The notes under the pieces: model-generated
Told to the model about the DNA's origin: nothing
What the model saw: only the letters and a program-made list of their open reading frames with translations
Databases searched by the model: none
In this document: positions 1 through 37,242 of the stretch, piece after piece
How positions within the stretch are numbered: the stretch's first letter is position 1
Layout: every line of letters begins with the position of its first letter
Virus record (IMG/VR): IMGVR_UViG_3300022752_000186
Location: 1 to 37,603 of that record
From: a virus
Reading direction: 5' to 3' (one strand)
Length of the DNA: 37,603 nucleotides
Program-made: the position numbers and the translations under genes

Positions 1-144
1 ACACTCGTCCTGGAAGGGATATGTCTTGAATGGAATCAATCCCCTCTCAGCGTGTGATATCTTGAGGTACTTGTTAGTGAAGTAAACGGGATCTTTCCCG
101 CACTTCACTATCTCCTCAAGTTGCGCGGCCTTTGATATTGGCAT
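1..144 (-). CDS. Probable terminase large subunit, N-terminal fragment (gp17-like)
   Basis: The 48 visible codons start at ATG 144 and run off the left edge. The peptide carries a CGKDPVYFTNKY stretch (about residues 14-25), then a KISHAERGLIPFKTYPFQDE stretch. This resembles the N-terminus of T4-type large terminases, where a conserved NPVYF..NY..I.HP..G..PF..Y.yQ segment precedes the ATPase Walker A motif. The family protein is the packaging motor: an ATPase plus nuclease that cuts concatemers and pumps DNA into the prohead. The Walker and nuclease motifs lie outside the window, so the call rests on this one segment. The ATG overlaps the TGA of the upstream gene by one base (TGATG), which suggests translational coupling. 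Another helicase/ATPase with a Q-motif-like FQ is the main alternative. Confidence 0.7.
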   Translation of the reverse strand, partial: MPISKAAQLEEIVKCGKDPVYFTNKYLKISHAERGLIPFKTYPFQDEC

Positions 145-509
145 CAGCTAACTTCGTAAACTACGTGTCTTCTGTAGTAAGCAATCTTGCGAGGTGACAT
201 TGCAGAAGCAGAGATAATCTCTATGTTGTCGTTGCTGCTGACTTCCTTGATCTTCAGTGACTTTCCGTAAAGGTCAGAGTACATCGGCTTCACTTTCGTG
301 ATGCAATCGTTGATCATAGTCACAGATCTCTCTGTCTCCCTCTTTGTCTGCTCTCTAAGCGAGTACTCTTCTGCAAAATGCACTACACTCGTGTATGTAA
401 CTACAAGGTTCTCCCCGAGATACTTGTGCTTAACTGAGGTGCTGCCATCAGAATTTCCACAGACAAGTTCAAAAGCCTGTGAAAGGGCAGAAAGCTGTCT
501 AGCGTCCAT
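144..509 (-). CDS. Conserved-looking phage protein of unknown function (121 aa)
   Basis: I do not recognise a named family. The protein is soluble, has no signal peptide or membrane segment, and is rich in charged residues. Its centre (EEYSLREQTKRETERSV, about residues 47-63) looks helical, and its end (SPRKIAYYRRHVVYEVS) looks like a beta-rich basic tail. The ATG at 509 has a good ribosome binding site (TAGGAG, 5 bases away) and overlaps the end of the zinc-ribbon gene by 11 bases. The stop overlaps the start of the terminase gene by one base, so the two are probably co-translated. A role near packaging or recombination is only a guess from position. Confidence 0.8.
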   Translation of the reverse strand: MDARQLSALSQAFELVCGNSDGSTSVKHKYLGENLVVTYTSVVHFAEEYSLREQTKRETERSVTMINDCITKVKPMYSDLYGKSLKIKEVSSNDNIEIISASAMSPRKIAYYRRHVVYEVS

Positions 510-798
510 CGATTCTCCTACTGAGTAAATAGTACCTCTGCGTCTCTATCTCACTTCTCTGTTCAATAACTATGGCCACATCTTCGGACGTAGGCCTCCA
601 CCCTTGGTTCCACTTCACCATATTTCTCTCTACTATGTCATCTTCACATGATCGACAGCAGCCCTTCCTTCTGTATGACTCAGCTGAAGTAGAGTTTCCT
701 ATGACTGTCTCGCATATTGGGCACCACATTGGAATATCAGGGTGAGTCGCACGGTTGTATATGACGTGCTTTCCCCTGTGACTACTCAGAGCAGACAT
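499..798 (-). CDS. Small zinc-ribbon protein (99 aa)
   Basis: The protein has two knuckles, CPIC (residues 26-29) and CRSC (residues 48-51), separated by 18 residues. This is the spacing of a zinc ribbon that could bind nucleic acid or protein. After the second knuckle comes a charged helical tail with the WNQGWRP element. I chose ATG 798 because AAGGA stands 5 bases upstream; an in-frame ATG at 813 has no comparable site. The gene overlaps the end of the gp47-gp46 fusion by 17 bases. Small zinc proteins beside recombination genes are common in T4-like phages. The exact role is unknown; zinc binding is inferred from the cysteines. Confidence 0.8.
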   Translation of the reverse strand: MSALSSHRGKHVIYNRATHPDIPMWCPICETVIGNSTSAESYRRKGCCRSCEDDIVERNMVKWNQGWRPTSEDVAIVIEQRSEIETQRYYLLSRRIDGR

Positions 799-3700
799 AC
801 GAGTCCTTGCCATTGTGAGTGATCTCGATCATGGTGTCAACGGCCTCCTTGACGGCGTCCACATGTGAGATGACGAGGATCGACTTGAAGTACCTCTTGA
901 GGCTACCGAGTAGGCGATTGCAGGCCTCGACGTTGGTATCATCCAGTGCGCCGAATCCCTCGTCAATGATGAGGATGTCGGACTTTGGAAGAGCTGAGAC
1001 GTTTGTAAGTGCAACTCGGATAGCCAACGAGGCGAGCATCTTCTCCATGCCAGATCCCAGCTCGATTGGACGGCGAGAGTCTCCGTAGTCGAGGTAGAGC
1101 TCAAGGTCATTGTTGTCTGGGTCTGCCTCCATGACGACATCGAAGTTGGTGATGCCGTGCAGGATCTTTGATATCTCTGAGTTGATCTTTGGAAGTTCCG
1201 AGGCGATAATCATGAGTGGGATGCCGTTCTTACCATACGCCTGGATGAGAGATTCGTAGACCTTCCACTTCCTACGCTTCTCTTCGAACTCCTCTTTGTT
1301 GGCCTTGAGCTCCTTGGTGCGTGCCTGTAGCATGCCAACATTTCGATTGGAGTCGTCGAGGAGAGACTGTGTCTTCTTGAGAAGCTGCGAAGTCTCATTT
1401 ATCTTGACCTTGACTCTCTCGACTTCCTCTCCTGTGTTGTCGTCGGAAACCCTGAGTCTGAGTGAAGACAGTTCAGACTGCAGCTTGAGTAGCTTTTCTT
1501 CCCTAGCCTCCCTTGACTCACTCAGCAACTTTCTCTCTCTCTCGGAAGAGAGAATCTTCTCATTGAGTAGAGTCTCCTCCTTCAGGAACTTCTCGTACTT
1601 CTCTATCTTCTCAGCAAGGGACTTTTCTCTAAGACCTCGCAGAGAAGAGCTGACACCCTTCAACTCAGTCGCTATGCCGGAGATGACAATCTTCTGCTCC
1701 TCGAGGAGCTTCTTGTCCCTGTGTGAGTCCTTGATGAACTTGCATGTCGGAAAAGAGTCTCCGCAGGGAACTTCGCTCAATCTTGCGACTGACTTTTCCT
1801 GGTTCTTTGCAACAACCTTCTCCTTCTCGAGGCTTGCAGCCAGACGAGCCTCTGACTTCTCAAGGTCGTTCAACAGCGCAAGTTCGGTCCTGAGCTCGCC
1901 TATCGGAAAGTTCTCTCTCAGCTTTGCTATCTTCGCTGACCTTTCTCTTGCGACACTGAGCTCATTAGTAATCTCCTCGACTCTCTTTGAGGTCTTCTCG
2001 ATCTCTGTTGTCTCTTCATCGACCTTGGACTGGCAATTGTCTACGTCACTCTTAGTGACGACTCCCTTGTCCTTGTGTGTGGCAAGCGTGACTGTGAGGT
2101 CGGTGTGTAGCTTTCGAAGAGATTCCACCTTCTCGGCATATCCCTTTATCTTCTCCTGCTCAGAATTCGCCTCCTGAACTGTCCTCTCGATCTCCTTGTC
2201 AAAGTCAACGTTGGAGTTGCCTCTCATTGCACCCTTGAGCATGACCGACTCAGACTTCAGCTTGTTTGCAATCTGCTCGAATACACCGAGGTCAAGGAAG
2301 TTGCCGAGTCTGTTCTTGCGAACCGCAGCTCCAGCCTTGACGAATGTGTTCATCTCACCCTGTGATGCGAAGGAGGTGAGGAGGAAGTCGTCAGAGGTGC
2401 CGATGAGGTTTCGCAGCACCTTGTCGGAATCGCTCCTCTGTTCGCCTGTCAGGTCAAAGACCTCCTCACCTGCCTCATTGAGGAGGTGCATCTTCATCGC
2501 AGTGTAGGCGTTCGTCTGGTTCCTCTTGTTGGTGTGCTTGGTCGTCTGACGAGTGATGCGGTAGGTCTTGCCATCCACCGCAATGTCGATGGAAGTCTTG
2601 CAGTATCCCTTGCGGGCATTCACGATGTGGATGTTCTTGATGGAACCACGATCAGTTGCATTGTAGAGGGCGTACATCATTGTGCCAGGTACAGATGACT
2701 TGCCTGTCCGGTTTGACCCGAACAATCCGACGACACCGTGCAGTTTGCTGAAGTCGATGACGTTGTCCTTGCCGTAGACGAAGGTGTTGTCCCAGGCCAT
2801 CCTCTTGATGGACCACTTCGAGTTCTTTACCTGCTCGTCCTCGTTGATGACAGCGAGGTTCTTCTCGATGAGGTTACCGATCTCCTTCCAGGATGCGTCA
2901 TCAAACTCACCATCAGGAAAGTACTTGCGAAGGAGGTTCATGTGAGTCTTGTGGTCACGAAGACTCTCCTTCTCGATTGAGGTGTCGCTGAAGTTGATGG
3001 TGTTGGAGGACTGCTGAGGTTCGATCTTCCATGCGATCTCGATGGCGCCGCAGTCGTTCTTCAGGACGGAGGCAAGTCCCTTGATCTCCTCCTGCATGAG
3101 GTCGACGTTGGAGGAGATGCGGAATCGGCTTCCCTTTCTCTTCGTGTAAGCGATCTTCGCAGTCTCAGAGACGGAACCCTGCCACTCGATTGTGACGAAC
3201 GGTGGAGGAGAGGTGATGAGGTGCCTCTCAGAGGACCACGTGTCCTTGTCCTCAATGTCCCAGAGGAGGAAGCCCTTGTCCTCTGTCTCACCAAAGTTCT
3301 GTTGGATGGTTGATCCGGGATATGCGATTCTCTTCTGGCGGTCGAGGTACTGGAACTTGTGGATGTCACCGAGAAGGGCAAAGTCAAAACCGTTGAAGAT
3401 GTGACCTTCAACTTCACCTTCGTCCAGGGTCCACTCTGAATCAGTCTCAGCGCCTGATACGGCGCCGTGAAAGATTGCGATGTTGGTCATTCCCTGAATG
3501 GGTTTCAGGTTCTTCCAGTTCTCCTCATCGAAACACGAGAAGTTTGACCACGCTACATTGAACTCCTTGTCCAGGTAGACTGTGGTGTCTCGTAGGTAGA
3601 TGATTCTGTCGTTGTTCAGCGCCTCGATGATAGGAGTGATTGCATCCAATCGAGAACGATTGAGAATGAGACCGTCGTGGTTGCCGAGTGTGACAATTGT

Positions 3701-3919
3701 CGGTGCAACTTCTGCCAGAGTATTGAACCACCAGACGAGGTGCTGAATGAGTTCAGGTGTGATTCCCTGCGTCTTTGAGTGGACTATGTCACCTGCAACG
3801 AGGATTCTATCCACATTCAGCTTCTTTGCCTTTTCTGCAAACTCCTTGAAGGCAAGAACGTACTCATCGTGACGCTTCATTCCGCGCCAGTGCACATCTG
3901 CGATGTGGGCTACTCTCAA
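782..3919 (-). CDS. Single-chain Mre11-Rad50 (SbcD-SbcC, T4 gp47-gp46) fusion
   Basis: One 1045-residue frame carries both subunits of the recombination nuclease. Residues 1-240 are a metallophosphoesterase: DVH 8-10, GDIVH 43-47, GNHD 79-82, FHG 150-152 and GDIH 184-187, the metal ligands of Mre11/gp47. Residues from about 375 are a Rad50/gp46-type ATPase: Walker A GSNRTGKS 401-408, Q-loop Q520, long heptad-rich coiled coils about 550-715 and 730-890, ABC signature LGSGMEKM 954-961, Walker B ILIIDE 982-987 with D-loop to 994, and switch His 1019. The hook at the coiled-coil apex is C719-x6-C726 rather than the usual CxxC. The complex resects DNA ends for recombination-dependent replication. 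The start is TTG 3919, because the first phosphoesterase strand begins at residue 3 and GAGGT lies 5 bases upstream. In T4 the two functions are separate genes 47 and 46. Confidence 0.95.
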   Translation of the reverse strand: MRVAHIADVHWRGMKRHDEYVLAFKEFAEKAKKLNVDRILVAGDIVHSKTQGITPELIQHLVWWFNTLAEVAPTIVTLGNHDGLILNRSRLDAITPIIEALNNDRIIYLRDTTVYLDKEFNVAWSNFSCFDEENWKNLKPIQGMTNIAIFHGAVSGAETDSEWTLDEGEVEGHIFNGFDFALLGDIHKFQYLDRQKRIAYPGSTIQQNFGETEDKGFLLWDIEDKDTWSSERHLITSPPPFVTIEWQGSVSETAKIAYTKRKGSRFRISSNVDLMQEEIKGLASVLKNDCGAIEIAWKIEPQQSSNTINFSDTSIEKESLRDHKTHMNLLRKYFPDGEFDDASWKEIGNLIEKNLAVINEDEQVKNSKWSIKRMAWDNTFVYGKDNVIDFSKLHGVVGLFGSNRTGKSSVPGTMMYALYNATDRGSIKNIHIVNARKGYCKTSIDIAVDGKTYRITRQTTKHTNKRNQTNAYTAMKMHLLNEAGEEVFDLTGEQRSDSDKVLRNLIGTSDDFLLTSFASQGEMNTFVKAGAAVRKNRLGNFLDLGVFEQIANKLKSESVMLKGAMRGNSNVDFDKEIERTVQEANSEQEKIKGYAEKVESLRKLHTDLTVTLATHKDKGVVTKSDVDNCQSKVDEETTEIEKTSKRVEEITNELSVARERSAKIAKLRENFPIGELRTELALLNDLEKSEARLAASLEKEKVVAKNQEKSVARLSEVPCGDSFPTCKFIKDSHRDKKLLEEQKIVISGIATELKGVSSSLRGLREKSLAEKIEKYEKFLKEETLLNEKILSSERERKLLSESREAREEKLLKLQSELSSLRLRVSDDNTGEEVERVKVKINETSQLLKKTQSLLDDSNRNVGMLQARTKELKANKEEFEEKRRKWKVYESLIQAYGKNGIPLMIIASELPKINSEISKILHGITNFDVVMEADPDNNDLELYLDYGDSRRPIELGSGMEKMLASLAIRVALTNVSALPKSDILIIDEGFGALDDTNVEACNRLLGSLKRYFKSILVISHVDAVKEAVDTMIEITHNGKDSYVCSE

Positions 3920-3924
3920 ATTTT

Positions 3925-3929
3925 ACCTC
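3925..3929 (-). promoter_or_regulatory. Ribosome binding site for the TTG-started gp47-gp46 fusion
   Basis: The sequence GAGGT lies 5 bases before TTG 3919 and overlaps the TGA stop of the primase gene (3930-3928). No ATG or GTG is available before the first phosphoesterase motif, so this site decides the start. Ribosomes ending the primase would release on top of it, which favours coupled translation. Confidence 0.6.
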
Positions 3930-4890
3930 AGAGAATTGATCCGGAGGAGATTCTCCGGATCAGAAAAGAAAGTCTATCGTTAGGTGTCCATTCCTTTGCA
4001 TTGTGAAGGCTCTCGAGGAACTCTTCCCTATCCATGTCACCTACATCCTTGGTGGAACCAGTATCCAGTATTCTCACCTTTACGTCGTAAGAGTATAACT
4101 TCTTCGCAATGTCATGACTCTTCTTCCTCATGTCATTGTCTAGCGCTAGAACCACTGGTGTGGAGTTCTCCACTATTCTTCGAAAGAGCAGAGACTCTGT
4201 CGAAAGTGATGAACCGAGGAGTGGAACAGCATTCTCACCTGCATTGAGCATGTCGAATGGTCCTTCAACTACGACAAGCTCCCTATCCCAGTCTACGTCT
4301 ATCTCGTTGAAGACTATACCCCTTCTGTCTGCTTTCGGATTGAGGTATCTCAAGCGTGTGTCAGTGTCAACTGATCTAGCAGTCCAATAGTTGGGAAGTC
4401 CCTCAGAGTCGAAAGAAGGAAAGACCACCCTTCTCCTTGCAGCGCCTCTAATAGAGCCGCATAGTCTGAACCTGTATGCAGTCTCGTAGCTGACCCCTCT
4501 CTTCTTGAGATACGAGAGTATCGCCTTTGCATCAGGGTCTATCATCTCGTGTAGAGCGTCTATCGAGTGCATCTCAGGAAACTCGATCTTCTCCTTTATC
4601 TCTACAGTGTCATCTTCGAAAGAAGACCTACCATGAGTACCGAATCTCTTGTTCCACTCAGGGAGAAGAGAAGGTGAATATTTCCGAAGAAGCCCACCAA
4701 TTGTGCCACCTTTGATGTCACAAACCCAGCAGTGCCACTTTTCTGTGTCTATTCTTACGACAAGCTTTTTCTTCTCAGGTTTCTTGCCACAAGATGGACA
4801 CTTGTAGTATACGTTGACGCCGTCCCTGGAGGTGTGAGACTCTCCGAAGGCTCTAACGAGGAATGTTACTCTTTCGGTTACGTCTAGCAC
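3928..4890 (-). CDS. DNA primase (T4 gp61-like, DnaG-type with TOPRIM)
   Basis: The protein makes RNA primers for lagging-strand synthesis, presumably with a DnaB-type helicase encoded outside the window. Domains in order: a zinc-binding module with CPSC (31-34) and CWVC (54-57); a linker; and a TOPRIM catalytic domain with VVVEGPFD (207-213, catalytic Glu 209) and LALDND (249-253, acidic pair Asp251/Asp253). The length of 320 residues is close to T4 gp61. The start is GTG 4890: an in-frame TAA lies two codons upstream, and no other ATG, GTG or TTG precedes the zinc module. No clear ribosome binding site is visible, and the gene overlaps the RuvC-like gene by 38 bases, so its translation may depend on upstream ribosomes. 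Its last codons form one arm set of a strong hairpin. Confidence 0.9.
   Translation of the reverse strand: MLDVTERVTFLVRAFGESHTSRDGVNVYYKCPSCGKKPEKKKLVVRIDTEKWHCWVCDIKGGTIGGLLRKYSPSLLPEWNKRFGTHGRSSFEDDTVEIKEKIEFPEMHSIDALHEMIDPDAKAILSYLKKRGVSYETAYRFRLCGSIRGAARRRVVFPSFDSEGLPNYWTARSVDTDTRLRYLNPKADRRGIVFNEIDVDWDRELVVVEGPFDMLNAGENAVPLLGSSLSTESLLFRRIVENSTPVVLALDNDMRKKSHDIAKKLYSYDVKVRILDTGSTKDVGDMDREEFLESLHNAKEWTPNDRLSFLIRRISSGSIL
3937..3962 (-). other. Perfect 10-bp inverted repeat at the primase/fusion junction
   Basis: The arms TGATCCGGAG and CTCCGGATCA pair perfectly across a 6-base loop. The element lies in the last codons of the primase gene and ends 6 bases before its stop and 7 bases before the ribosome binding site of the gp47-gp46 fusion. 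No T-tract follows on either strand, so it does not look like an intrinsic terminator. A translational operator, an mRNA-stabilising hairpin or an RNase processing site are possible readings. Confidence 0.65.
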
Positions 4891-5485
4891 GTTTTATTGT
4901 AACATCAAGCTCACCAAGTTCAATGAGCCTCACTGCACGAGCCATGACATATGCATCCGCGGCATCTTCTACACCTTTCTCGTTGACCACTGTTCCCTTG
5001 CCTTTTCCTCTTGTCAAGAGCTTCTGCGGCCACACGTAGTCAGGCTCCTGGATGTTCACCCACTCAAGCACCTTCTTCTTCACATCCTCACCCTTTGCAT
5101 GAGTTATCCCAAGGGCCTTTCTTGCAGATACAACCGGAACTGTGATGGGATCTACTCCAAGGACACTGGCAGCGACGTAGTGGACAACACCATTGAACCT
5201 CGCAAGCGTGATCAGTGTGTTTGCCGAGGAAGCGCCTCGCCTGAAACCGAGGAGGTTCTGCTCTATCGCTATCTTGCGGATTCCAGCGCCTCTGTACTTC
5301 TCTATCTCTCTTCTGACAGCCTCTGCCTTCTCGTGTATCGTAGAGAACTCACTGAGATACACGAAAGACGACTTTATCATCTTCCCTTCCCTGTCTATCA
5401 ACGAGAATCCTGTGCAGGATGTGCTAACGTCAATTCCCAGGTATGTCTCAGTAGTCGAACTTTGTCCTGAACATGATTCTGTCAT
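4853..5485 (-). CDS. RuvC-like Holliday junction resolvase (RNase H fold)
   Basis: The 210-residue protein shows the RuvC/RNase H-fold catalytic set: YLGIDVSTSCTGFSLID (15-31) with first acid D19, then IAIEQNLLG (72-80) with E75, and GVEDAADAYVMA (171-182) with D174 and D177. The family cleaves four-way junctions. Here it would resolve recombination intermediates and branched concatemers before packaging, a job T4 gives to the unrelated endonuclease VII (gp49). The segment GASSANTLITLARFNGVV (84-101) is typical of RuvC-like phage proteins. The start is ATG 5485 with GAGG upstream, although this overlaps the preceding LamG gene by 38 bases; no later start precedes motif I. The basic C-terminus (residues 198-210) may contact DNA. 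Confidence 0.88.
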   Translation of the reverse strand: MTESCSGQSSTTETYLGIDVSTSCTGFSLIDREGKMIKSSFVYLSEFSTIHEKAEAVRREIEKYRGAGIRKIAIEQNLLGFRRGASSANTLITLARFNGVVHYVAASVLGVDPITVPVVSARKALGITHAKGEDVKKKVLEWVNIQEPDYVWPQKLLTRGKGKGTVVNEKGVEDAADAYVMARAVRLIELGELDVTIKRARRNRKSNIPR

Positions 5486-34552: not shown

Positions 34553-34844
34553 CGGAGCCCTCCTTTACGTCCTCTATCTTGCTGATGAGATTCGCTACGT
34601 ACAGAATGGCGTCACGTGAGGCCTTCACGTCCTCGTGTACTCTCTTGATCTCAGGTGAATCGTAGAAAAGTGGTATCTGCAACACCTTGCTGATAGAAGC
34701 GTATCTCTTATCTAGTACGTCAAGAGATATCTCGATGCTCTCTTGAATATCTAGCAGAATCCTACCAAATTTCAAGGCGTAGTAACCGAGAAATAGAACA
34801 AGTAGGGTCTCTACAGCCAAGAGACCAAGGAGAAGATATGTCAC
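34542..34844 (-). CDS. Small membrane-anchored protein (100 aa)
   Basis: A single hydrophobic segment (TYLLLGLLAVETLLVLFLGY, residues 2-21) is followed by a soluble helical tail with LDVLDKRYASISKVL and IPLFYDSPEIKRVHEDVK (residues 59-76). I expect an N-terminal anchor in the inner membrane with the tail in the cytoplasm or periplasm. The function is not recognised. The start is GTG 34844, placed by the 4-base GTGA overlap with the glycosyltransferase stop; a longer frame reaching 34934 would overlap that gene by 94 bases. The sigma-factor gene overlaps its end by 11 bases. Confidence 0.7.
   Translation of the reverse strand: MTYLLLGLLAVETLLVLFLGYYALKFGRILLDIQESIEISLDVLDKRYASISKVLQIPLFYDSPEIKRVHEDVKASRDAILYVANLISKIEDVKEGSGER
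34559..34565 (-). promoter_or_regulatory. Strong ribosome binding site for the GTG start of the sigma factor
   Basis: AAGGAGG lies 6 bases before GTG 34552, inside the end of the membrane-protein gene. It fixes the start codon and suggests high translation of the sigma factor. Confidence 0.7.
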
Positions 34845-36001
34845 AGTGACACGCCTATCAAGTTTTCGTAAATTTCCTCGACACTCTTCTGTGTTAGTCT
34901 CTTTTGGATTTCTGCACTGAGATCTGCGGCCCACTCTCTCGGTGTATGATGAGACTCAAACATCTTTCTCATCTTTTTCTTTGCATCTGCCTCTCTCGGC
35001 ATTGCCCACTTTGCTCCACTCACGAATATCTTTTCGTCAAAGAGTTTCTCTGAGACATTGGTGAGGTCGTATGGAACTCTGGAGAACTTTCCGAGGTTGA
35101 GAAAGTCTAGATGGCCTGACCACTCAGTAGCAATTATCGGGAGACCAGCAGCTGCTGCATCAACCAAGGGAAGACCGTATCCTTCTCCTCTCGTGAAAGA
35201 GACCATGCAACCAATCGAAGGGTGCCTGTAAAGAGTGGCACACTCTTCCTGATCCAGCTCACCATTCAGAAGATAAACTCTGGGGTACTCTCCCTTTCTC
35301 ACCTCTTTCAGAAGAGTGTCAAAGACTTGCTTCAACTGTATCCTGTGATAGATGCAGTTCGTTCCCATGTTTGACTTTACGACGAGACCAACGTCCTTAT
35401 TTCCCTTGAACTCTTCGCAAAACCACTTCACTGTGTAGAAGAGATTCTTTCTGTCAGTGTCAGGATGGTTGCCAGTCATCTGTCCAAAAGTCAAAAAGTT
35501 GAACTTTGTCTCTAGCTCCGGGAGGCTAATGGCTCTTGGGTTCTTTCCTGTCTCAAGCCACTCGTTGAAAGACTCGGGGATCACCTCAATCTTCTCACTT
35601 GGGACTCCTGACTTGACAAAGCCTTCCTTCGAGAACTTACTAGGGACTATGACCCTGTCCATTTTCATGACAGATTCTACCCACAGTGTAGACACCTTGT
35701 CAGTCTCTACACCTGCAGTCACTCCAATGTTGAACTTGGCAAGACCAGGTGTCCACTCATGTGGCAACTGTATCTGTATTGACACATCAGGGTTCTCGAA
35801 CCTTGCACCTGATCGTGACATTATCTTTCCGACCAGCCCATTCTCTGCATCGCTGTCGAGATACCAGGGTGTAATGCCCCAAGGAGTTATCTCTGCAGCA
35901 AAATTGCAACCTCTGCTATCTAGCCACTTGGCTATCTGCCTTGCATGCGTTCCGTATCCAGACTTGGAAAGCAGTGGGCCTCTCAGGTGTACGCTCTTCA
36001 T
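34841..36001 (-). CDS. GT4-type (GT-B fold) glycosyltransferase (386 aa)
   Basis: An N-terminal acceptor-side domain begins with MKSVHLRGPLLSKSGYGTHA (the Gly-rich loop of GT-B enzymes, about 12-19). The C-terminal nucleotide-sugar domain has FLTFGQMTGNHPDTDRKNL (169-187) and SFTRGEGYGLPLVDAAAAGL (268-287). In this last motif the family's E-x7-E pair is E273 and D281, a conservative change. The substrate cannot be read from sequence; candidates are host surface glycan, virion protein or modified DNA. ATG 36001 forms an ATGA overlap with the previous glycosyltransferase, with GGGAG upstream; a TTG at 36019 would lengthen it by six residues. It is probably co-translated with its neighbour. Confidence 0.9.
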   Translation of the reverse strand: MKSVHLRGPLLSKSGYGTHARQIAKWLDSRGCNFAAEITPWGITPWYLDSDAENGLVGKIMSRSGARFENPDVSIQIQLPHEWTPGLAKFNIGVTAGVETDKVSTLWVESVMKMDRVIVPSKFSKEGFVKSGVPSEKIEVIPESFNEWLETGKNPRAISLPELETKFNFLTFGQMTGNHPDTDRKNLFYTVKWFCEEFKGNKDVGLVVKSNMGTNCIYHRIQLKQVFDTLLKEVRKGEYPRVYLLNGELDQEECATLYRHPSIGCMVSFTRGEGYGLPLVDAAAAGLPIIATEWSGHLDFLNLGKFSRVPYDLTNVSEKLFDEKIFVSGAKWAMPREADAKKKMRKMFESHHTPREWAADLSAEIQKRLTQKSVEEIYENLIGVSL

Positions 36002-37242
36002 AGCTTCTGTAGCTCCCAATTCTTGCGGTCATTTCTCCAATTCGCAATAAGATCACCGAGTGTCCTATCCCATGCATCTATCGTCTTCTGGTATCCGAAC
36101 TCGTGCTCTGCGTATGACTTTGCCTTCTCGCCAATCCTTCTTCTCTCATCAGGGCCCATTTCGTAGAGCTTAAGATAAGCGTTTGCAGTAGTCTCTACGC
36201 TGACATAGTCCTCGTAGATGTACGGAACCTGCTGTGAACCGACAAGAGTTCTCATCTCGACTGGTAGTGCAACTCCATTCTCTGAGCCGTCCCTGTGATC
36301 AACAACTTGTCTTGTCAGGCCACCTGTCTGTATCGCAACGATCGGATTTCCGACTGTCATAGCTTCTAGAGTAGAAAGTCCGAATCCCTCTGCATACGAA
36401 ATGTTGACGCAGAAGTCGGAGATATTGTGCAAGATGTTCATCTTCTCGTAATCGAGTCTTTCTCTAGAGAAGATTATGTTCGACTCTACGTTGAAGTGTC
36501 TGGATACTTCGACTAGATTAGGGCCTTCTGAGTCAAAGGGATCGGTGTGCATAATCAGCGTTGCGTTCTTGTGACCGTGTCGTTCGTGTAGCCTGTCAAG
36601 GAATATCTTCCAAGACTCTATCACGTCGGAAGGCCTCTTTCTTCTGGCGTTGCGATTTATCCACAGGCCAACAAAGTGATCCTTTCTGTCTTCTCCCAAC
36701 AGCTTGGTCTTGTTGAAAGACTTCATGTAAGGTGCGATCGGTTTGAAAAGATCTGGTGGCAAAGCATGAGGAACAAAGTTAGTCTTCTCTGGGTACTTCT
36801 CGCTGACCATCTTGTAAGTGAGATAAGAGTGACAGTTTAGAAGATCTGTTCCCCTGTAAAAGGGCTCGTTGAATGTCGGCGCAGGAGTATTGTCCCAGAC
36901 ATGCCACCATGCAATAGGACAAATCTGGTGGACTTCGTCCTCCATTTCGAAAAGCCACGTGAAGAACCTTGGATCAGTAAAAATGAGAAGCGCGTCTGGC
37001 TTCTCAGTTGCAAGTGCAACTCTCAAAAGGTTTCTATCACCAAAGCCATCGATCGGCTTGATAACGAAGTCTTCGTTCACTACGACTGTATCATAGTTCT
37101 GGTGCTTTATTGCTGCACCGAACTGCCTAAAAGACCAGCCCCCTTTCGCAAGGAGGCCGTTGATGAGATGTCTTGTCTGATTGCCTACACCGCTTGGGCT
37201 GAGTGCGTGGTCAGAAAGTACTATGACCTTTCTCTTCTTCAA
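35998..37242 (-). CDS. GT4-type (GT-B fold) glycosyltransferase (414 aa)
   Basis: The N-terminal Rossmann strand and loop read RKVIVLSDHALSPSGVGNQT (4-23). The C-terminal domain has FVGLWINRNARRKRPSDVIE (190-209), a sugar-nucleotide site strand (NATLIMHTDP 226-235) and the family E-x7-E motif ISYAEGFGLSTLEAMTVGNP (281-300), with E285 and E293. A VDHRDGSENGVALP end follows (314-327). The start is TTG 37242: AGGTG lies 4 bases upstream and no ATG or GTG is available before the first strand. It follows the nuclease gene after 48 bases and overlaps the second glycosyltransferase. The two enzymes are diverged from each other, so they may add different sugars in sequence. Confidence 0.9.
   Translation of the reverse strand: MKKRKVIVLSDHALSPSGVGNQTRHLINGLLAKGGWSFRQFGAAIKHQNYDTVVVNEDFVIKPIDGFGDRNLLRVALATEKPDALLIFTDPRFFTWLFEMEDEVHQICPIAWWHVWDNTPAPTFNEPFYRGTDLLNCHSYLTYKMVSEKYPEKTNFVPHALPPDLFKPIAPYMKSFNKTKLLGEDRKDHFVGLWINRNARRKRPSDVIESWKIFLDRLHERHGHKNATLIMHTDPFDSEGPNLVEVSRHFNVESNIIFSRERLDYEKMNILHNISDFCVNISYAEGFGLSTLEAMTVGNPIVAIQTGGLTRQVVDHRDGSENGVALPVEMRTLVGSQQVPYIYEDYVSVETTANAYLKLYEMGPDERRRIGEKAKSYAEHEFGYQKTIDAWDRTLGDLIANWRNDRKNWELQKL

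Follow-up and report, generated by a model that had tools for sequence, protein, structure and literature searches.

Fusions of Mre11 and Rad50 into a single polypeptide were described in 2011 by Yoshida, Claverie and Ogata in Mimivirus R555 and Bacillus phage 0305phi8-36, and the same study reported them in eukaryotes, bacteria and plasmids and found the fused forms not to be monophyletic (PMC3175470). Many R555-like sequences that are abundant in aquatic metagenomes were argued to be phage-derived, and marine viral scaffolds with R555-like fusions carry primases too (PMC3175470). R555 has an Asp in place of the metal-ligand His of motif V and a His in GDxxH (PMC3175470). In the unfused complex of T. 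maritima, the C-terminus of Mre11 lies about 28 Å from the N-terminus of Rad50, a distance for which a linker of 9-12 residues suffices (PMC3175470). T4 gp46/gp47 and E. coli SbcCD are encoded by separate genes, as the first-pass annotation of this locus had noted.

The gene analysed here lies in one 37.6-kb virus contig, the whole of which we refer to as the window. It runs from 3919 to 782 on the minus strand and encodes 1045 aa with no internal stops; the plus-strand frame at 782-3919 has stops throughout. The TTG start at 3919 is preceded by GAGGT 5 nt upstream and, judging from the alignment, is the start position also used by most relatives; the stop codon is at 784-782. Pfam Metallophos covers residues 1-188 with a score above the gathering cut-off (E 7.5e-10), and phrog_77 (SbcC-like, E 2.5e-50) covers residues 306-1042. 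SbcC_Walker_B was found at residues 949-1004 below the Pfam cut-off, and the NCBIfam SbcC and SbcD models each match the expected half of the protein under their own cut-offs. In a phmmer search against the PDB, the first part hit Mre11 chains and the second hit Rad50 chains. The window gene is hence confirmed as a real one-frame fusion of an Mre11/SbcD-like nuclease and a Rad50/SbcC-like ATPase with the nuclease first, which are the features that define R555-type fusions. The first-pass annotation had proposed such an uninterrupted 1045-residue frame, and this order, without naming the strand. Elsewhere in the window, baseplate wedge matches fit a contractile-tailed phage, and two overlapping glycosyltransferase genes (phrog_2170; 34841-36019 and 35998-37242, minus strand) adjoin structural genes.

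To describe the domain layout, we used an AF2 model computed from an alignment of 42 family members, comprising the window protein and loci from our scans (Table 1). The model has a mean pLDDT of 84.8 and contains both folds, nuclease then ATPase; with a pTM of 0.48, it does not fix the relative placement and packing of the domains. The Mre11/SbcD-like part covers residues 1-360 and the Rad50/SbcC-like ATPase residues 368-1045, so that the joint falls close to residue 370, where it had been placed from the sequence. Across the 103 aligned sequences, 6-8 residues separate the end of the last nuclease-side helix from the first strand of the ATPase. Foldseek matched the model to T. maritima Mre11:Rad50, E. 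coli SbcCD and S. aureus SbcD, and the cap-like region to the SbcD nuclease and cap structure 7dog. The Rad50 head aligned to E. coli SbcC (7yzo) with Z 32 and rmsd 3.7 over 352 residues; the VIA-align matches listed comprise Rad50 and SMC heads, and the structural likeness of the nuclease part rests on Foldseek. From their position and the account of Yoshida et al. (PMC3175470), we infer that the two helices at residues 323-360 represent the helix-loop-helix (HLH) by which Mre11 binds Rad50.

Table 1. Features of the fusion gene and its neighbours in the window.
Feature	Residues	Window position	Strand	Basis
RuvC-like resolvase gene, conserved neighbour		4853..5485	-	phrog_159, E 3.1e-14; synteny
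Primase-like gene, 8 nt upstream of the fusion		3928..4890	-	phrog_47, E 3.6e-45; synteny
Mre11-like nuclease core	1-222	3254..3919	-	Pfam Metallophos, alignments, AF2 (2-222)
Nuclease core motifs D8xH10, D44, N80H81, H151, GD185IH187	1-222		-	Alignments
Cap-like domain	228-299	3023..3238	-	AF2 secondary structure, Foldseek 7dog; boundaries inferred
Disordered stretch	302-314			AF2
Predicted HLH	323-360	2840..2953	-	AF2 helices 323-333 and 341-360
Joint linker (7 residues)	361-367	2819..2839	-	AF2 and alignment
Rad50 N-terminal head half	368-541	2297..2818	-	Walker A GSNRTGKSS, Q520
Antiparallel coiled coil with arms of about 170 residues	545-895	1235..2287	-	AF2
Coiled-coil arms	545-716 and 730-895			AF2
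Hook turn, Cx6C (C719, C726)	717-729	1733..1771	-	AF2 and alignment
Rad50 C-terminal head half	900-1045	785..1222	-	GSGMEKM, ILIIDE, D-loop, H1019
121-aa protein downstream of the fusion		144-509	-	No PHROG match, no Pfam match

Scanning with the window protein alone gave 22 viral loci; with a profile, at least 588 related stretches were identified among the 600 pattern matches listed, and the best 80 were kept. The idea of a fusion peculiar to this contig was rejected on this count. Scanning GTDB genomes added 15 further loci in metagenome-assembled genomes (MAGs), several of which are probably stray phage contigs. A match was obtained at 119 loci, 102 of which encode the complete fusion as a single ORF, and relatives aligned to the window protein are 25-57% identical to it. 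The 17 incomplete relatives comprise 14 that are cut by contig ends, one with runs of N (L033), one remote nuclease-only ORF (L041) and L003 (2944-7166 of LR756508.1, a 484-kb uncultured phage), in which a 305-aa ORF breaks the fusion gene shortly after GDIHK. This inserted ORF has a TnsA-like endonuclease domain and a Cys-rich N-terminus, and the insertion has the appearance of an intron or intein that carries a homing-type endonuclease. The fusion copies L027-L039 were binned in MAGs labelled Halobacteriovorax, Methylococcaceae, archaeon, Chloroflexi and others, and include L033, a stretch of a WOR-3 'chromosome' joined through runs of N; they are likely misbinned or misjoined phage contigs. 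Six cultured phages carry the fusion, namely Microcystis phage Mel-JY01, Tenacibaculum phages PTm1, PTm5 and pT24, Sphingomonas phage PAU and Chryseobacterium phage MA9V-1. Megablast against the phage collection detected no close DNA-level cultured relative, and plasmid relatives were distant partial matches only. In 14 related contigs (88-284 kb; not known to be complete records), the sole detected Metallophos match and the sole phrog_77 match fall in the same ORF, and the fusion therefore appears to replace the separate nuclease and ATPase genes. Taken together, the fusion is the normal arrangement in a large family of mostly uncultured phages. The first-pass annotation had presented it as unusual and had named its being standard across the phage family as the finding that would overturn this view; the arrangement is indeed standard there (102 other loci), occurs in cultured phages and was published in 2011 (PMC3175470).

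Among described fusions, the best full-length structural matches in BFVD were 'DNA repair exonucleases' from giant viruses (about 1200-1400 aa), alongside the pT24 and PTm1 phage fusions. A possible kinship with R555 is hinted at by these giant-virus fusions at the top of the BFVD matches and by sequence peculiarities common to both proteins. Like the window protein, R555 has the nuclease before the ATPase in one chain, keeps the HLH region, which is predicted in the window protein, and a short linker, carries Asp for the motif V His and GDxxH in motif II, and belongs to a type associated with primase genes on marine scaffolds. In contrast, the window protein has a shorter coil (1045 versus 1351 aa in total) and a Cx6C hook, and comes from a tailed phage rather than a giant virus. 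The PTm1/PTm5/pT24, PAU gp288 and MA9V-1 proteins from large cultured phages are also single-chain Metallophos and Rad50-like proteins (1301-1326 aa), but they have a longer coil and form a separate clade in the tree, and the PTm1 hook is CxxC; they are annotated only as metallo-phosphoesterase, DNA repair (exonuclease) or gp288. The Mel-JY01 protein WWT39521.1 is a full-length fusion of about the same size and 32% identity, encoded near a primase-like gene, but has a CxxC hook and is annotated only as an AAA domain protein. A hinge-less oceanic SMC clade (PMC12153180) was considered as the same group and rejected, since it is without a CxxC hook and is placed within SMC.

Compared with split systems, the window protein shares with T4 gp46/gp47 and the T5-type D12/D13 of Pectobacterium phage My1 the same two activities by homology, a short coil and an association with phage recombination, whereas those pairs are separate genes and have CxxC hooks. 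E. coli SbcCD has the same folds and the gene order sbcD then sbcC, but consists of two genes and has a much longer coil. A match in a Monoglobus pectinilyticus plasmid was rejected as a fusion, as it represents two adjacent genes; in this plasmid the nuclease and ATPase genes are unfused, keep the same order and are separated by 9 nt, and those of phage My1 are likewise adjacent and in this order, with a 20-nt overlap. A fusion could readily arise from such a layout. In a tree of 26 fused proteins and five split pairs, all fused sequences fall on one side of a branch with support 94/87; because unfused sampling is thin and branches are long, we do not claim a single origin of the fusion.

The gene order RuvC - primase - fusion is conserved. 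In related loci, a RuvC gene lies upstream in 83 and a primase gene in 61, always on the same strand. The 121-aa downstream protein is kept in 92 related loci, and its AF2 model (pLDDT 88) is closest to lambda gpU (Z 8.9, rmsd 3.2, 97 residues). Its top seven structural matches are tail-terminator or neck/tail-cap proteins, with weak Foldseek E-values (best 2.4e-3), and we offer only as a lead that it may be a tail terminator.

We counted motif conservation in an alignment of the window protein and the 102 other full-length ORFs (103 sequences). The ATPase half contains the Walker A and Walker B motifs together with the Q-, D- and H-loops; the signature reads GSGMEKM, and the ABC head is bipartite and divided by the coiled coil, as expected of Rad50/SbcC. 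K407, G957, E959, D986, E987 and C726 are invariant, and Q520, S956, D993 and H1019 are kept in at least 101 sequences. The apex cysteines form Cx6C (PCGDSFPTCKF) instead of the canonical CxxC zinc hook. Both aligned apex positions are Cys in 97 of the 103 sequences, and six relatives have CxxC. A similarly wide apex spacing, PCNDKLKPSC, is present in the unfused SbcC of Moorella phage MTATph1, and we found no description of a Cx6C hook in the literature searched, coverage of which was partial. One relative, L118 (1351-4470), has heads that resemble those of L028 (60-residue blocks are up to 73% identical) and a hook, HEYDPNCTYCCNNEFVK, that resembles the Mel-JY01 hook, HEYDPKCKHCCNNIFVK; this mosaic suggests that the hook segment was exchanged between fusion clades.

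In the nuclease half, D8, D44, N80, H81, H151, D185 and H187 are invariant, and H10 is kept in at least 101 sequences, with Q in two. D185 occupies the place of P. furiosus Mre11 His206, so that motif V reads GDIH in all 103 fusions instead of the canonical GHxH. Of the complete motif sets that had been claimed for both halves, the ATPase motifs and most nuclease ligands are thus present, while the motif V His is an Asp and the CxxC hook is Cx6C. Motif V is GHFH in T4 gp47 and GHIH in the Moorella phage, and since GDLH occurs in the T5-like phage My1, whose D12 is unfused, the Asp is not tied to the fusion. As it is also published for R555, we regard it as a known variation that does not exclude the protein from the Mre11/SbcD group. 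With D185 in every member, the metal preference or rate of the nuclease may differ.

Given the order of the domains, the conserved motifs, the predicted fold, the presence of the fusion throughout the family, the RuvC and primase neighbours and the lack of other copies detected in large contigs, the window protein is very probably a single-polypeptide phage Mre11-Rad50 (SbcD-SbcC) DNA-end-processing nuclease of the R555-like kind. By analogy with the characterized complexes, two fused chains would most likely form the usual M2R2 particle, held together by a nuclease dimer and by the ATP-bound Rad50 heads, in which each predicted HLH would dock on the root of its own coiled coil and the 7-residue linker would join both parts covalently. 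The head would open and close as ATP is bound and hydrolysed, letting the nuclease reach DNA ends or hairpins, and end processing would yield 3' ends for recombination-dependent replication and repair of the phage, as for T4 gp46/gp47. Assembly, metal binding, ATP gating and both enzymatic activities are presumed here from homologues, and from homology and the neighbouring genes we infer the recombination role. The first-pass annotation had suggested that the tether could change how the complex assembles; we favour an ordinary M2R2 complex with a covalent tether because Mre11 appears to have kept every part with which it docks on Rad50.

It is improbable that the tether instead imposes a stoichiometry or geometry that is not canonical, such as nuclease and head acting strictly in cis, and so confers a functional novelty over SbcCD. 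The covalent link does fix a 1:1 stoichiometry, the linker is short and conserved in length, and D185 and the Cx6C hook diverge from canonical complexes; however, unfused M2R2 is already 1:1 and the motif V Asp is also found in unfused T5-type D12. As the cap and predicted HLH are kept and the linker is roughly long enough to bridge the T. maritima distance (PMC3175470), standard geometry is possible. Improbable, too, is a nuclease half that is dead or altered, leaving mainly a Rad50-type DNA tether. D185 replaces the motif V His throughout the alignment, but the other ligands are invariant or nearly so, which would be unexpected if the site were dead, Asp is capable of binding divalent metals, and T5-type D12 carries the same Asp. 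That two genes were merged by an assembly or frameshift error at the joint, conceivable for one contig, is ruled out for practical purposes by the 102 other full-length single-ORF loci, by cultured phage genomes from independent laboratories that share the fusion and by the uniform linker region across all aligned sequences.

Collectively, these data extend the metagenomic fusions of 2011, then confirmed in few long sequences, to more than 100 phage loci, and within this family the fusion is the only Mre11/Rad50 copy detected. Otherwise little is changed, as the fusion was already known and common. As a single-chain 1045-aa Mre11-Rad50 with a short coil, the protein could suit structural and single-molecule work. 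We consider it possible, if rather doubtful, that the main clade is a distinct biochemical subtype of Mre11-Rad50, defined by a Cx6C hook (PCGDxxPTCKFIKD) that is evolutionarily interchangeable with CxxC and by the fixed His-to-Asp ligand. The fixed Asp and the Cx6C hook are the only part that might interest specialists and, if the proposal is true, would give the main clade its own joining and metal chemistry.
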